From Dysgonamonadaceae bacterium (GTDB lineage Bacteria; Bacteroidota; Bacteroidia; Bacteroidales; Azobacteroidaceae): a stretch of 35,514 nt of DNA. Position numbers and translations under genes: made by a program. The stretch covers positions 1-35,514 of the forward strand of contig JAIRLY010000006.1 in NCBI GenBank assembly GCA_031259075.1. Reading direction: 5' to 3'. Numbering within the stretch: the stretch's first letter is position 1; every line of letters begins with the position of its first letter. Positions 10,348 through 25,833 of this stretch are shown piece after piece. Below the pieces are notes generated by a model that saw nothing but the letters and a program-made list of their open reading frames with translations, searched no databases and was not told the origin of the DNA.

Positions 10348-10400
10348 AAATATCCCTATTAATTGGGGGGATACGATAGTAAATATCCCTATAAATGGGG
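10348..10400. promoter_or_regulatory. Two tandem operator-like repeats
   Basis: AAATATCCCTATTAATTGGGG (10348-10368) and AAATATCCCTATAAATGGGG (10381-10400), starts 33 bp apart, each an imperfect inverted repeat. Confidence 0.65.
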
Positions 10401-10401
10401 A

Positions 10402-10432
10402 TTGTAAAGAAGAATCGGAACTTGTACTTTTG
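10402..10432 (+). promoter_or_regulatory. Bacteroidota-type promoter for the porin/imelysin operon
   Basis: TTG (10402-10404) - N20 - TACTTTTG (10425-10432), 26 bp before the ATG at 10458. Confidence 0.7.
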
Positions 10433-10457: not shown

Positions 10458-11750
10458 ATGAAATTTAAGTATCTTTTAATAATAAACTTTCTCATTTTTT
10501 CTCCATTTTTAATTGTTCAGGCAGAAGTAAAAGACACGACAACTGCCGTAACGCCTCTAAAACACCGTTTTACATTGGGTGGTTATGGAGAAGCAATCGC
10601 TCAACGCATGTTTTACAGCGATAATGTGGCCCGGTATATGTACCCCGAAAGTAATAAGGACGCCACACACGGTCGTTTCGACTTGCCCCATGTAGTCGTT
10701 TATATGGCTTATGATTTCGGCAAAGGCTGGAAATTTTCTTCTGAAATAGAATTTGAACATGGTGGCTCCGGAAGTACATTTGAAATAGAAAAAGAAGAAA
10801 CCGGCGAATATGAGACCGAAATAGAAAAAGGAGGCGAAGTCGTTCTCGAACAGTTTTGGATCGAAAAAACGTTTTCCGATGAAGCCAATCTTCGAATAGG
10901 GCATATTATTGTTCCTATCGGATTGACCAATCAATATCATTTACCGACCGATTTTTTTTCAGCGCTCCGACCGGAAGAAGAAACGGCCATTTTGCCTTGT
11001 ACATGGCATCAAACCGGTATCAGTTTTTGGGGTAAAACCAAACATTGGCGCTATGAAGCCCAATTCTTATCGGGATTGGATGCCGAACGGTTCAGCAACG
11101 CCGGATGGATCAAAGAAGGTGCTATTTCTCCTTACGAATTTGAAATTGCCAATTCGTATGCAGGTGCTCTTCGAGTAGACAATTATTCCGTTCCCGGATT
11201 GCGGATCGGACTGAGCGGGTATTACGGCTACAGCGCTCAAAACAGCTTGAAATGGGAACGTTATAAAAATCAAAATGTAAAAGGCGCTGTAAGTATCGGC
11301 GCACTCGACGCTGTTTATAACGATTATAATCTGTTGGCTCGCGGCAATGTAATCTATGGACATTTAGTTAATTCGTATGCTATTTCCATGATTAATAAGA
11401 AACTGCCTTCGGCAAGTCCATCGCCAAGAACGGATGTGGCTTCCGATGTGTTAAGTTATTATGTAGAAGCTGGATACGATCTGTTTTCTTTCTTTCCGAA
11501 ATTCCGAAACAAACAAGAAAAACTGTATGTTTACGGACATTATGGTTTTTATGATTCCATGTATAAAACCGATAAAAGAATTGCGGCAAAAGATTGGACG
11601 AAAAAAACAATTATTAGCGGAGGCATCAATTATTATCCGCTAAAAGAAATTGTAGTGAAGGCAGAATATTCTTTCCGGAAATTCAGCGCTCTCTACAACA
11701 ATGAGCCGACATTTTCGTTGGGAATCGCATACGCAGGGCTTTTTAAATAA
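10458..11750 (+). CDS. Outer-membrane porin-like beta-barrel protein
   Basis: Signal peptide; RFTLGGYGEAI, EIEFEHGG, LRIGHIIVPIGLTNQYH...TAILPCTWHQTGISFWG, C-term FSLGIAYAGLFK; first gene of an iron-type operon. Confidence 0.75.
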   Translation: MKFKYLLIINFLIFSPFLIVQAEVKDTTTAVTPLKHRFTLGGYGEAIAQRMFYSDNVARYMYPESNKDATHGRFDLPHVVVYMAYDFGKGWKFSSEIEFEHGGSGSTFEIEKEETGEYETEIEKGGEVVLEQFWIEKTFSDEANLRIGHIIVPIGLTNQYHLPTDFFSALRPEEETAILPCTWHQTGISFWGKTKHWRYEAQFLSGLDAERFSNAGWIKEGAISPYEFEIANSYAGALRVDNYSVPGLRIGLSGYYGYSAQNSLKWERYKNQNVKGAVSIGALDAVYNDYNLLARGNVIYGHLVNSYAISMINKKLPSASPSPRTDVASDVLSYYVEAGYDLFSFFPKFRNKQEKLYVYGHYGFYDSMYKTDKRIAAKDWTKKTIISGGINYYPLKEIVVKAEYSFRKFSALYNNEPTFSLGIAYAGLFK

Positions 11751-11778
11751 AAAATAACAATTAAAAAATAAAGACATT

Positions 11779-12939
11779 ATGAAAAGTTTAATGAGAAATG
11801 GTGTACTCGTATGGGCGCTAACAGCGTTCGTTTTGAGTTTTTCTTCTTGCGAAGAAGAAATAAAAGAAAATAACGATGACGTAAAAGTAAATGCGGCTGT
11901 GGAGGCATGTTCAAAACTTGCAACATTATTTACAAGTATTGAATATGACAAGGGAAGCGATGATTTGTATAAACAAATTCTGGAAAATTATGTTAATTCA
12001 ACGATTATTCCGACATATCGCTCTTTGGCGGAAGCTGCCCTTGAAATGCGTACGGCCAATGATGCATTAAAAGCAAATCCGGCCAATGAAACCATGAAGA
12101 AAGCGTCGGAAGCATGGATGAAAGCGCGTATCTGGTGGGAAATCAACGAAGCGTTTCTTTTTGGTCCGGTAGGCGAAAGCGCTCTGGATATTGACGGCCA
12201 CATTGATTCCTGGCCTTTGGAATTGGAAGCCATCCAAACTTCCATTGCCGAAGGGGGAAATATCACCGGTCAGGATGCATGGAATTTGAATGCGGAAGTG
12301 ATCGGCTTTCACGTGACCGAATATTTACTTTACCGCGACGGACAGTCCCGTCCGGTAAGCGATTTGACGTCTGCCGAATTGAATTATCTTACCGCAGCTA
12401 CCGATGCATTGGTATGGGATTGCGTTCTGGCTTATGTGGCTTGGGTTGGCGAAGACAATGTATCAGAGGAGATGAAAACCGTTTTCAAGGAAAACTCTGA
12501 TGTGGTAGCTCATTTGGAGAATAATCCTACTTATAAAAATTTTGCCGCTAAGATGAAAGATGCTTCCGGTTTTTCAAATTCCTTTGCTTCTGCTGTTAGT
12601 CAAATTTCCGATGGCGCTGCCGAGATAGCGAATGAAGTAGGAGAAACAAAAATAGCCGCCCCTTATGCAACCGGTAAGGTGGAAGAAGTCGAATCGTGGT
12701 ATAGCTGGCATTCATTGGACGACTATAAAAACAATATTGAAAGTATAAAAAATGCGTATTTAGGAGGTGTTGATGGCAGTACCCGTACTTCGACATCCCT
12801 GAGTACTTATGTTAAACAGATAAGCACGGATTTAGATACAGCTATTAAACGTCAAATAGATGACTGTATTTCGAAAATTGACGCCATTGGCGCCGACGGA
12901 AGATCTTTTTATGAAGTTGTGCGTGATCGTAAAAAATAA
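11779..12939 (+). CDS. Imelysin (peptidase M75-like) family lipoprotein
   Basis: Lipobox FSSC; VIGFHVTEYLLY contains the GxHxxE motif; AWMKARIWWEINEAFLFGPV. Confidence 0.88.
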   Translation: MKSLMRNGVLVWALTAFVLSFSSCEEEIKENNDDVKVNAAVEACSKLATLFTSIEYDKGSDDLYKQILENYVNSTIIPTYRSLAEAALEMRTANDALKANPANETMKKASEAWMKARIWWEINEAFLFGPVGESALDIDGHIDSWPLELEAIQTSIAEGGNITGQDAWNLNAEVIGFHVTEYLLYRDGQSRPVSDLTSAELNYLTAATDALVWDCVLAYVAWVGEDNVSEEMKTVFKENSDVVAHLENNPTYKNFAAKMKDASGFSNSFASAVSQISDGAAEIANEVGETKIAAPYATGKVEEVESWYSWHSLDDYKNNIESIKNAYLGGVDGSTRTSTSLSTYVKQISTDLDTAIKRQIDDCISKIDAIGADGRSFYEVVRDRKK

Positions 12940-12947
12940 ATAATTAA

Positions 12948-14486
12948 ATGAAAGTCTTAAAATTATCTTTGAGAATTGTATTATTCCTTGTATTTGTTGT
13001 TTCTTGTGCGGATGAAAAAGGGACAGGTTCTGGAGAAATTGTAATACCGGATATTCCTTCCAATAGACCTCCCTATAGTGAAGAACGTTCGGAATGGTAT
13101 CCGGGTGGCGAAAATGGAACTGTATTTATTTCTAATACATTGTCTTATCAACAAGCGATGCCTTTCATTGACGCTAATCCGGAATTATACAGGGCTTTTA
13201 TGCGTGGTGAACGTATTTTTGAGAAAAGTTTCGTCACAACGGAGGGAATGGGTTATTCGGGATTAGGTCCTGTTTATATCCGGAAATCATGCATCGCCTG
13301 CCATCCGAGTTACGGAGGAAGAAGCAAACGGGTAGACAAATTCGATACCAACGATAGCCGAAACGGTTATTTGTTAATGATTTATGATCCTAATTCTCCG
13401 ACGCTGGCTTTAGCAAGCAATTATTTTACCGGAATGACTCAAACGCAAGCTGTTTCTCCCTATAAATCGCCGATCAAAGAATCGGGCATACACCTCGAAT
13501 GGCTTCCTTATACGGATGAATACGGTAACAAATATGAAGATGGAACTTCTTATTCGCTTATTTATCCTAAAATAACGATTGATCAGGACGCTATTTTGTT
13601 CAAAAATTTTGATATGAGCAAACACGCCGCTTCCATCGAAGCTACGATTGGCATTTACGGCGTTGGCTTGTTGGATGCTATTTCGGACGAAGACTTGCGG
13701 GCAGAACATCAAAGTCAACAAACGCGCGGGTATTGTCCGGGCGTTATCGGAGCAGATATTGATGAAACAGGATTAAACCCGTATTATCCGGGCAAACATC
13801 CCGGAAGGTTCACTTATCTTTGTACACGTGCTACGATTGATAACGGACCGGGTTCGAATGCCCTTTGGAATATTACGAATGTGACGCGTCCCGACAGAAG
13901 ATACCATTATATTACGGAAGAATATGCCAAAGTAATGTCCAAAGATCCGGATGTTCAAAAAGCATTGGGACAAAGTGAAGCGGAAATTTTTGCCTATCTG
14001 ATGTCCAAAGAGCTTAAGCCGGAAATGACAATGGAAGATTACAATGATTTTATGGTTTGGCATCGGGCAGTCGCTGTTCCGGCAGCCCGTAATTTGGACG
14101 ATGAGAAAGTGAAAAAAGGGAAAACGCTCTTCAGCGAAGCCGGTTGTGCCGCTTGTCACAAGCCTTCGTGGACTACGCGTAGCGATTATAAGCCGCAACC
14201 CGAACTTTCCAACCAGAAGATTTATCCTTATACGGATCTTTTGCGTCACGACTTGGATATGTATGAACCGGGGCGGGTGAAACTTTGCCGGACAACTCCT
14301 TTGTGGGGACGCGGCTTAATGCCTGTCGTATCCGGACATTCGGATCATCTCCACGATTTACGCGCCCGCAATTACGAAGAAGCTATCTTGTGGCATGGAG
14401 GAGAAGCAAAACAAAGTAAGGATAAATTTCGCAAAATGTCGAAAGAAGACCGTGATGCTTTGGTTAAATTCTTGGAATCTATATAG
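12948..14486 (+). CDS. Di-haem oxidoreductase (DUF1111-like) lipoprotein
   Basis: Lipobox VVSC; two CxxCH haem motifs (CIACH, CAACH); TPLWGRGLMPVVSGHSDHLHDLRARNYEEAILWHGGEA. Confidence 0.9.
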   Translation: MKVLKLSLRIVLFLVFVVSCADEKGTGSGEIVIPDIPSNRPPYSEERSEWYPGGENGTVFISNTLSYQQAMPFIDANPELYRAFMRGERIFEKSFVTTEGMGYSGLGPVYIRKSCIACHPSYGGRSKRVDKFDTNDSRNGYLLMIYDPNSPTLALASNYFTGMTQTQAVSPYKSPIKESGIHLEWLPYTDEYGNKYEDGTSYSLIYPKITIDQDAILFKNFDMSKHAASIEATIGIYGVGLLDAISDEDLRAEHQSQQTRGYCPGVIGADIDETGLNPYYPGKHPGRFTYLCTRATIDNGPGSNALWNITNVTRPDRRYHYITEEYAKVMSKDPDVQKALGQSEAEIFAYLMSKELKPEMTMEDYNDFMVWHRAVAVPAARNLDDEKVKKGKTLFSEAGCAACHKPSWTTRSDYKPQPELSNQKIYPYTDLLRHDLDMYEPGRVKLCRTTPLWGRGLMPVVSGHSDHLHDLRARNYEEAILWHGGEAKQSKDKFRKMSKEDRDALVKFLESI

Positions 14487-14491
14487 GATGA

Positions 14492-15643
14492 ATGGAGAGA
14501 GGCAAAAGGAGAGAGAAAATCAAATATATAGCGTTTGGTAGCTTAATAGCGCTTTTAATAATACTCGCGACAGCTACCGTCGTCGAAAAACTTTGGGGTA
14601 GTGAGTTTGTTCATGCACAAATTTACAAAGCAGGGTGGTTTGTCGCTCTATGGTTTGTATTAGGCGTCAGTGTACTTTTTATTTTGTGCCGTGCGCCGTG
14701 TGTCATGCACCCTTTTACTCTATTATTGCATTGTTCGTTAGTAATTATACTCCTTGGAGCGTTTATTACTTATCTTACGGGCGACCGGGGATTTGTTCAT
14801 ATAAGACAAGGAGAAATAGCCAATTTCTATATTTCGGAAGAGAATGCTGTGAAGCATTCTCTTCCGTTTAACGTGAAATTACTTTTATTTGATATAGAAT
14901 ATCATCCGGGTACGGATGAGCCGGCCGATTATATTAGTTTCCTGAAAATAGATGAAGAAGTATGCAGGGTTTCGATGAATAAGATTTTCAAACGACAAGC
15001 CTATCGGTTGTATCAAATGGATTATGATGCCGACGAAATGGGAACAACTCTCTTGGTCAGTCATGATCCTTATGGGATCGCTGTCACCTATACGGGATAT
15101 GTACTACTTGCGATTTCCATGCTGGGATTACTGTTTATTCGAATAGATTGGAGAGGGATGATTTACACATTCGTTCCGGTTGCCGGATTGTGGTATTACA
15201 TTTCACAACTGAATCCGATAACTCCGGTCTTGCGTTCGCCACTATTAGCTGCTCATGTATCGGTCATTATGATTTCTTATTTGCTCCTTTTGATAATTGC
15301 CGTTTTAAGTATTATCGGCCTTTTTTCTAAAAAATTATCTAAAAAATTTTATCTCCGGAATAGTAAACTGCTGTATCCCGCATTGTTTCTCTTGGCCACA
15401 GGCATCTTTATCGGAGCCGTTTGGGCTAATATTTCGTGGGGAAGATATTGGGGCTGGGATGCTAAAGAAACTTGGGCGTTAATCACGCTATTGGTTTATG
15501 CATTTCCTTTACACAAAGGTAGTTTGCCTTTTTTCCGAAATCAACGAAAATTCCATATTTATTGCGTTATCGCTTTCTTTTCAATTTTAATGACATTTTT
15601 TGGCGTCAGTTATTTTTTGGGAGGAATACATAGCTACATATAA
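14492..15643 (+). CDS. Compact ResB/CcsA-type cytochrome c biogenesis protein
   Basis: N-terminal ResB-like membrane segments; C-terminal CcsA core with SWGRYWGWDAKETWALITLLVYAFPLH. Confidence 0.88.
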   Translation: MERGKRREKIKYIAFGSLIALLIILATATVVEKLWGSEFVHAQIYKAGWFVALWFVLGVSVLFILCRAPCVMHPFTLLLHCSLVIILLGAFITYLTGDRGFVHIRQGEIANFYISEENAVKHSLPFNVKLLLFDIEYHPGTDEPADYISFLKIDEEVCRVSMNKIFKRQAYRLYQMDYDADEMGTTLLVSHDPYGIAVTYTGYVLLAISMLGLLFIRIDWRGMIYTFVPVAGLWYYISQLNPITPVLRSPLLAAHVSVIMISYLLLLIIAVLSIIGLFSKKLSKKFYLRNSKLLYPALFLLATGIFIGAVWANISWGRYWGWDAKETWALITLLVYAFPLHKGSLPFFRNQRKFHIYCVIAFFSILMTFFGVSYFLGGIHSYI

Positions 15644-24002: not shown

Positions 24003-25718
24003 TTATACTTCGGTGATTTCAAATTGGTTTTTACCGATAAAAACCACAACGGCAGCTTTCATATCGGGGCGTTCATTCAATCGGTGGGAATGGAGGTATT
24101 GATGCAATTGCGCCATGCCTTCTTCCCGTTTGTGGGGAACTTCTTTCTCTTCTCCTGTTTTGCAATACTCCAATTCCAATATCCATTCGTACTTGACTTG
24201 CGGCAGATTAGGGTTGCGTTGCAGATAAATATCCGTATAACCCGGCGTTGCTTCGTACTCGCTCATCGGGATGTAAATATGGCTTTGGAAAAGGTATGCC
24301 AAAAGCAGGATTTGAATGTATTTCTCATCAAACTTTTTCAGGTCGCGATCCGAGAGTTTGCTGAAAGCGTTCTGCGAGACATAGTCTATGTAACGGTGAA
24401 CGTCGCCCTCCATTGCCATCGCAATAATAGCCTCATTCAAGAGTTGAGTTTCTAAGGTCAGGTTAGACGTTTCCCTCGTCAAACGACTGATATATTCCCA
24501 ATAAAGCGTTTTGACGGAATAGTTGGGAATACCAAGAAATACTTGTGAAAAATAAGGTCGCTTAATGGTCAGTAGCCCCATATAGAAAAGCAGGGATACA
24601 AAATAATCATCATCAGTTAAATTGTCAATAGAGAATTTTCTGATAATTGTAGTAGTTATCCCTTCGTCTTTCACAATTTGGATTAAACGGTCACGGTTTC
24701 GTTCGTTTTGAGTAAGACGTTGCAAACGTCCGTAATCCGTTTTTAAGTTATCGTCGATGATATTTTCCGGCGCTTTCCTTTCTTTCAGTATTTGATCAAA
24801 AAAATAAAGGATCATTGCCGGATTGTAAACACTATTTTCTCCTTCTTTATGAAAAAGATAGCCATCGTAATAGGTTTGTATATCAACATTGATACAAGCC
24901 GGATCAACGCCTGTTTCGACCATCAGTGTATCGACTTCGCTCTGGGTGAAGCCCATCATTTCATTGTATTGCAAGTCGAGCGTTAGATTGGCGGCAATAT
25001 TGAATCCGCTGGTGAGATCGTCGAGCATAACGGGAGAAATGCCGGTGATGAAAATACGATCGAGAACATTTTTTGTGGCAATTTTCAATGTTTCGTAGAA
25101 ATCGCGAACTAAACCGTTGGCATGCACCATTTGTTTGTAAATATCATTGCCGACACGATTTCTCATAGCAATCAGGTCGTTGGCGAAATGATCGTATTCG
25201 TCAATGATGACAAAGATTTTTTTTCCGGCTGCGTCTGCAGCGTCGTAAGCAATACGCAAAGCGTCAATACCTGGTTTTTCCGTATCTATTTGCTGAATAA
25301 ACATCTTGGATTCAGGGAAAAGAGAACTGTAATCATTGATAAAATGGCGAACAGTTGCTTGTACATTGCGGGAAAAAGATATTTTAAATTCTTCTTCTGA
25401 GGAAGTATTCATGCCGGAAAAATCGAACAGCATCATCAAATAACTGTTATGCCTGTGAGTAGGATTTTTTCCAATGTACAAATCACCGAAAAGCGCCTCA
25501 AAATCTTTAGCCTTGTTCAGATCGTAGTAATGATCCAATACAGAGAAGAACAAACTTTTCCCGAATTTGCGCGGACGGATAAAGAATTGATATTTGTTGG
25601 TTTCATTTTCCAGCAATTCTATAAACCGTGTTTTATCCACGTAGTAGTAATTTTCTTCTCGGATACTACTGAAATTTGAATTGCCGTAAGACAAACGTTT
25701 GATCTTTTTTTCAGGCAT
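24003..25718 (-). CDS. AAA-ATPase-like / PD-(D/E)XK nuclease-superfamily protein
   Basis: YYVDKTRFIELLENETNKYQFFIRPRKFGKSLFFSVLDHYY, KIFVIIDEYDHFANDL, C-terminal YTDIYLQRNPNLPQVKYEWILELEYCK; start Met MPEKKIKRLSYG at 25718. Confidence 0.9.
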   Translation of the reverse strand: MPEKKIKRLSYGNSNFSSIREENYYYVDKTRFIELLENETNKYQFFIRPRKFGKSLFFSVLDHYYDLNKAKDFEALFGDLYIGKNPTHRHNSYLMMLFDFSGMNTSSEEEFKISFSRNVQATVRHFINDYSSLFPESKMFIQQIDTEKPGIDALRIAYDAADAAGKKIFVIIDEYDHFANDLIAMRNRVGNDIYKQMVHANGLVRDFYETLKIATKNVLDRIFITGISPVMLDDLTSGFNIAANLTLDLQYNEMMGFTQSEVDTLMVETGVDPACINVDIQTYYDGYLFHKEGENSVYNPAMILYFFDQILKERKAPENIIDDNLKTDYGRLQRLTQNERNRDRLIQIVKDEGITTTIIRKFSIDNLTDDDYFVSLLFYMGLLTIKRPYFSQVFLGIPNYSVKTLYWEYISRLTRETSNLTLETQLLNEAIIAMAMEGDVHRYIDYVSQNAFSKLSDRDLKKFDEKYIQILLLAYLFQSHIYIPMSEYEATPGYTDIYLQRNPNLPQVKYEWILELEYCKTGEEKEVPHKREEGMAQLHQYLHSHRLNERPDMKAAVVVFIGKNQFEITEV

Positions 25719-25833
25719 AATGAGATTGCGTCTAACATATAAGGACAAAGATAATACATCTTTATCAAAAAGGCTAACAAGGTAAAATCAATCAGTGCAA
25801 CCGCATCAAAAATTAACATTTCTGTAATTAAAA

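Follow-up and report, generated by a model that had tools for sequence, protein, structure and literature searches.

How much of a cytochrome c synthase does a bacterium need when a single cytochrome has to be matured? The question is raised by a four-gene operon on the forward strand of contig JAIRLY010000006.1, from a Dysgonamonadaceae bacterium of the order Bacteroidales (assembly GCA_031259075.1). The whole 35,514-nucleotide stretch of this contig that was analysed is called the window. The operon ends in a gene for a miniature form of the fused cytochrome c synthase CcsBA, and its role as a dedicated, minimal synthase for the DHOR di-haem protein encoded just upstream is well supported. 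The operon as a whole probably combines an outer-membrane iron-handling module with the enzyme that matures its only cytochrome. Four open reading frames (10458–11750, 11779–12939, 12948–14486 and 14492–15643) encode, in this order, a 16-strand-type porin, an imelysin lipoprotein, the di-haem DHOR lipoprotein and the fused CcsBA, with gaps of 28, 8 and 5 bp between them. An initial annotation had already described this gene content and tight spacing, and Pfam assignments together with a fold match for the porin bear it out. Chance or misannotation is ruled out, because sister species have the same four-gene block at protein identities of 36–85% and omega is low, about 0.07–0.13 across the four genes in pairs with unsaturated synonymous divergence (dS). 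The same gene order is common in Bacteroidales, where CcsBA has 630–770 residues; examples are found in Bacteroides gallinarum (L077), Prevotella oral taxon 376 (L110) and Barnesiella (L113).

The product of 14492–15643 is only 383 amino acids long. Both parts of the synthase lie in this single chain and both families score above cut-off: ResB (PF05140, 2e-13) at residues 77–182 and Cytochrom_C_asm (PF01578, 8.5e-27) at residues 223–380. Alignment with Helicobacter hepaticus CcsBA (7s9y) and with PDB entry 25vk, the best sequence match, proceeds in two blocks. Residues 25–217 correspond to the CcsB part and residues from about 228 to 382 to the CcsA end. The AlphaFold model has a mean predicted local distance difference test score (pLDDT) of 83.7, and its sole strong Foldseek matches are 7s9y (E 1.9e-13, template modelling score 0.70 on the query) and 7s9z (E 4.1e-12). 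The predicted fold of the common parts, their order, the haem ligands, the WWD motif and the beta-cap region are thus shared with the System II enzyme of H. hepaticus. Residue mapping, with names taken from Table 1 of PMC11322641, recovers all four ligand histidines on the forward strand: (i) His80 (14729–14731) corresponds to H83, TM-His2; (ii) His255 (15254–15256) to H761, P-His1; (iii) His341 (15512–15514) to H858, TM-His1; and (iv) His380 (15629–15631) to H897, P-His2. The WWD motif occupies residues 313–332 (NISWGRYWGWDAKETWALIT, 15428–15487), as identified by alignment and by conservation among miniature forms. Its core reads WGRYWGWD and is flanked by the periplasmic pair His255/His380. 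The transmembrane pair His80/His341 is invariant in 21 miniature sequences. A beta-strand domain, assigned by DSSP on the model to residues 98–191 (14783–15064), aligns with H. hepaticus residues ~100–118 and 230–300. It is taken to be the first periplasmic domain, which in CcsBA contains the beta-cap (PMC10663686).

The middle of the protein is what has been lost. At the junction, residues 217–239 (15140–15208), 22 residues stand in place of the 270–400 found in full-length relatives; intermediates with 163 and 185 residues at this position exist. Some 350 residues are gone, comprising the second periplasmic domain, several helices and the CcsA N-G/S-Y-E-T segment. Compared with the 942-residue H. 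hepaticus enzyme, there are no equivalents of residues ~119–229 and 329–728. The two periplasmic domains and roughly 14 helices of fused CcsBA are therefore not found here, although this layout is typical and not defining: the periplasmic region is smaller in unfused CcsB–CcsA pairs (PMC10663686). The initial annotation's picture of a product with ResB- and CcsA-like parts, far shorter than usual, agrees with this domain map. A different departure from the standard enzyme is seen in three full-length CcsBA proteins encoded beside DHOR (L120 8321–10435, L123 8387–10447 and L124 2699–4765). Both transmembrane histidines are replaced there, by Tyr at the first position and Tyr, Ser or Ile at the second, and both periplasmic histidines are kept.

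The argument for a dedicated enzyme comes from the rest of the genome. The bin to which the window belongs (3.8 Mb in 424 contigs, 97% complete, 7% contamination) contains single matches to PF01578 and ResB, which both fall in the miniature gene, and one DHOR (PF06537) and one PF00034 match, the latter inside that DHOR. Searches of this genome for NrfA (PF02335), NapC/NirT (PF03264) and CCP_MauG (PF03150) gave no match. CXXCH-coding DNA sites number 171 in the genome and also 171 in a reversed control, so the raw count is uninformative. The 152 sites that lie outside the window's contig without an internal stop were inspected in their surrounding sequence. CXXCH is in frame in just 11 open reading frames of at least 100 amino acids, and none of these resembles an exported cytochrome. 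By inspection they are DnaJ-like, Cys-rich of Fe-S type, HNH-like, flippase-like, small Cys-rich activase-like or spurious frames. A second synthase and further c-type cytochromes were thus found neither by family searches nor by the CXXCH census. The initial annotation had proposed a dedicated minimal synthase for one di-haem lipoprotein and had suggested looking elsewhere in the genome for maturation genes and c-type cytochromes; the proposal comes through this comparison intact, with the genome's only detected synthase beside its only detected client.

Related genomes show the same association. Among the family's genomes that bear DHOR or a miniature gene, one of nine with the miniature gene has another synthase, versus 19 of 21 without it (Fisher p = 6e-5), and NapC or NrfA scores above cut-off in none of eight genomes whose only synthase is the miniature form versus 12 of 22 others (p = 0.01); same-genus genomes are not independent and bins are incomplete, so these p-values are optimistic and the case is to that extent weaker. 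One of the eight (G026) has a weak 80-residue NapC fragment below cut-off. The single exception among the nine species, G010, encodes the miniature form with DHOR and, separately, has a full-length CcsBA gene close to that of a NapC-type cytochrome. NrfA was considered as a second client and is absent from all genomes with a miniature gene. In many genomes of the family NapC matches sit in open frames of 509–554 amino acids, and one locus (L152 1817–3388) encodes a NapC/NirT-type multihaem cytochrome fused to an FGE-sulfatase domain, near a full-length CcsBA.

The three upstream genes indicate what the cytochrome may be for. The first (10458–11750) encodes a 430-residue porin-like barrel to which Pfam assigns no family. 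Foldseek matches the AlphaFold model of this protein (mean pLDDT 83.6) to 16-strand proteins, namely general porins and OprP/DcaP-type channels. Residues 96–131 (10743–10850) include ten invariant Glu within 36 residues in 30 homologues of 35–80% identity, as expected of a cation-binding channel, which suggests a cation-selective constriction. The second gene (11779–12939) encodes a 386-residue imelysin of the peptidase M75 type in canonical order (PF09375, 4.4e-51). It matches PDB entries 3n8u and 4ecg by sequence and has the GxHxxE motif at residues 176–181 (12304–12321). The third (12948–14486) encodes the 512-residue DHOR protein (PF06537, 8.4e-44, plus Cytochrom_C), a member of the family formerly named DUF1111. 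Its two CXXCH motifs begin at residues 115 and 400 (13290–13304 and 14145–14159) and are kept in 75 of 75 and 74 of 75 homologues; Cys20, the expected lipidation site, is kept in at least 95% of them. Lipobox-type leaders on the imelysin and DHOR, read by eye rather than with a signal-peptide predictor, are consistent with the two lipoproteins named in the initial annotation. Elsewhere a variant operon has a circularly permuted imelysin (L043, L072, L076, L087, L121, L137 and L148–L150). In L043 this operon is followed by Porin_O_P, a small possible cytochrome, an L-PSP-type protein and a full CcsBA.

A mechanism can be proposed for the complete operon. (i) Haem made in the cytoplasm would enter the transmembrane site of the miniature protein (His80/His341). 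(ii) It would then shift to the periplasmic WWD site (His255/His380). (iii) Covalent attachment to both CXXCH motifs of the DHOR apoprotein, the putative activity of the enzyme, would take place beneath the retained beta-cap. (iv) Holo-DHOR and imelysin would be carried as lipoproteins to the outer membrane. (v) The Glu-lined porin would let iron in, and imelysin would bind it at GxHxxE. (vi) Finally, the di-haem DHOR may perform the redox step that renders the iron usable. A lineage with a single small client could have dropped the second periplasmic domain and several CcsBA helices.

Iron acquisition is suggested by known relatives. The Bacteroides thetaiotaomicron counterpart, BT2473–BT2482, is induced 63–324-fold on iron depletion (PMC10434189) and encodes the same four kinds of product, annotated as CcsA, porin, thiol oxidoreductase and peptidase M75. 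It differs in that its imelysin is circularly permuted (PMC3143127) and the locus holds extra genes; moreover, a second locus of B. thetaiotaomicron (BT1414–18) encodes NrfA together with a ResB and a CcsA of its own. A full-length CcsBA is expected in the iron-depletion locus, judging from relatives such as L077. The imelysin BT_2479 has been detected in culture supernatant (PMC6282197). Imelysins are linked to iron uptake and are nearly always paired with haem peroxidase-type partners (PMC3143127), and their relative EfeM binds iron (PMC9174327). EfeUOB/M and Pseudomonas PA4370–PA4373 likewise place an imelysin-like protein beside a haem peroxidase-type protein in an iron-linked setting (PMC3143127, PMC9174327). 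In contrast to these systems, the window operon has no EfeU, adds a porin and a synthase, and uses as haem protein a DHOR with covalent haem motifs. The operon type is thus already known from expression data. Literature searches found no paper describing a miniature synthase and none that links imelysin operons to cytochrome c biogenesis; for the B. thetaiotaomicron counterpart, the published description goes no further than induction by iron depletion (PMC10434189). The initial annotation had asked whether the operon is widespread or characterised. It is widespread with a full-length CcsBA, and the miniature form does not appear in the papers found. The novelty is a miniature single-client synthase, which is a variant of CcsBA and not a new type of system.

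The same genes could instead be switched on by iron starvation to serve periplasmic or surface redox chemistry or a defence against peroxide. This account, which is compatible with a dedicated synthase, is rather unlikely, and it deserves more weight than the other alternatives considered here. Pfam calls DHOR a putative peroxidase, a catalytic activity has yet to be defined for it, and the operon encodes no inner-membrane iron permease; none of the EfeU (Ftr1) type is present among the four open reading frames or their immediate neighbours. Iron binding by EfeM, the link of imelysins to uptake and the strong iron-depletion response of the B. thetaiotaomicron locus all favour iron handling instead, as does the conserved Glu stretch of the porin, although acidic residues are not specific for iron. 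The initial annotation had called the operon a self-contained redox iron-acquisition module. The iron part of that description is plausible by comparison with these relatives, and 'self-contained' overstates the case for an operon without a permease. Its observation is confirmed, and its reading was largely right.

A second alternative concerns the enzyme itself: the miniature protein might only export or handle haem, with DHOR matured in another way or left as apoprotein. The CcmC family offers a precedent, since a WWD core alone handles haem there without being a synthase. The miniature form also lacks the second periplasmic domain, which has been proposed, with the remaining periplasmic region, to function in CXXCH presentation (PMC6299221). 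However, CcmC has no TM-His pair (PMC10663686), whereas the miniature protein keeps the TM-His and P-His pairs and the beta-cap; and both CXXCH motifs of DHOR stay conserved in a genome with no other detected synthase. Small deletions in the first periplasmic domain of the H. hepaticus enzyme abolish function, and one small deletion in the second domain leaves about 25% of activity (PMC6299221), which agrees with which domain the miniature form keeps and which it loses. An exporter without synthase activity is improbable.

CcsBA enzymes with restricted clients have precedents of another kind. The Wolinella isoenzymes NrfI and CcsA1 are separate CcsBA proteins, each dedicated to particular cytochromes. 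They are full-length and serve unusual haem motifs, whereas the client of the miniature protein has ordinary CXXCH; the special substrates of such isoenzymes are CXXCK and CX15C (PMC10663686).

Miniature forms are found in nine species of the window's genus, mostly behind the same upstream genes. Their omega, 0.07–0.11 in pairs with unsaturated dS, indicates purifying selection and is similar to that of the other three operon genes, and 44 positions are invariant over 21 sequences, including all four histidines and the WWD core. Other Bacteroidales have two of about 380 residues (L053, L054), four of 395–405 (L055–L058) and six of 343–398 (L059–L064). The last six, together with L038 and L039, also lack the first two transmembrane helices (TM1–2), and the forms without TM1–2 span 314–398 residues. 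Where the sequence covers it, the end of the DHOR gene overlaps their start, coincides with it or stands no more than a few tens of bases away, so there is no space for the two helices. The phylogeny requires six state changes by parsimony, and no bootstrap tree groups the miniature forms as one clade; an approximately unbiased test under a simpler model does not reject a single clade (p = 0.22). Repeated rather than single origin is thus suggested. That the gene is a decaying remnant of a full-length CcsBA is very improbable: it is indeed an internal deletion of the widespread form, eight relatives have lost further helices and in some sisters the operon lacks a synthase gene, but the low omega between species, the invariant positions with every haem ligand among them and its standing as sole synthase in eight of nine genomes all speak against decay. 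Related loci include an unfused pair of 237 and 271 residues that replaces fused CcsBA behind the same operon (L065 9998–11510) and a 521-residue CcsBA intermediate (L079 9998–11563). Two near-complete genomes of 1.0–1.2 Mb belong to the same genus as the window, and the lineage probably comes from the termite gut.

Several points weigh against an iron-handling module with its own synthase. The H. hepaticus experiments covered small deletions only and the tolerated one lost most activity, so that by analogy an enzyme without the entire second domain and the helices might be catalytically impaired; the searches turned up no biochemistry on a miniature form. Many sister species have the porin–imelysin–DHOR block without an adjacent synthase, and the link between synthase and operon is therefore not obligatory. 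A second synthase may sit in the ~3% of the bin that is missing, and the want of a permease, noted above, counts here as well. A broader claim can be made only tentatively, at somewhat less than an even chance. It holds that CcsBA proteins of 314–405 residues are working synthases, that internal deletion produced them more than once in Bacteroidales, and that cytochrome c maturation in the window's lineage is kept solely for iron acquisition, serving one client in the absence of any respiratory c-type cytochrome.

The operon is preceded by a conserved control region. A Bacteroidales-type promoter on the forward strand (10400–10432) consists of GATTG (10400–10404), a 20-bp spacer and TACTTTTG (10425–10432). 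Twin palindromic, operator-like copies lie 33 bp apart at 10352–10372 (ATCCCTATTAATTGGGGGGAT) and 10385–10402 (ATCCCTATAAATGGGGAT). The second overlaps the -33-type box, and the pattern has two matches in the window where 0.04 are expected. The spacer is exactly 20 bp in 17 of 22 upstream regions (17–24 allowed; shuffled mean 0.2). Collected loci totalling 2.34 Mb contain the extended motif 20 times, 19 of these upstream of this operon's porin gene, in a search set enriched for the operon and with a pattern partly derived from the same sequences; L060, L115, L119, L136, L137, L149 and L150 played no part in drawing it. Both miniature-bearing and full-length lineages have the motif, and the GATTG-N20-TANNTTTG promoter with twin palindromes is kept before the porin gene across Bacteroidales. 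A natural guess is that the palindromes form a putative iron-responsive operator, through which iron might control the window copy. Two further observations concern other sequence. An AAA-ATPase-like protein with a PD-(D/E)XK nuclease end is encoded at 24003–25748 of the window. A Bacteroidales-type operon also occurs in L084 (JAMPDC010000001.1), filed as Staphylococcus sp., a genome that is probably mislabelled.

Neither cryo-electron microscopy nor small deletions have so far shown which regions of CcsBA are required for exporting haem and for substrate presentation and release. In the miniature forms nature has supplied deletion variants that are under selection and in which precisely the haem ligands, WWD core and beta-cap survive. 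Should they prove active, they would amount to a minimal synthase of a size suited to reconstitution. In a one-enzyme, one-client system within an iron-starvation operon, the phenotype of maturation loss would report iron handling and not respiration. The miniature CcsBA suggests how little of the haem-attachment machinery nature may need.

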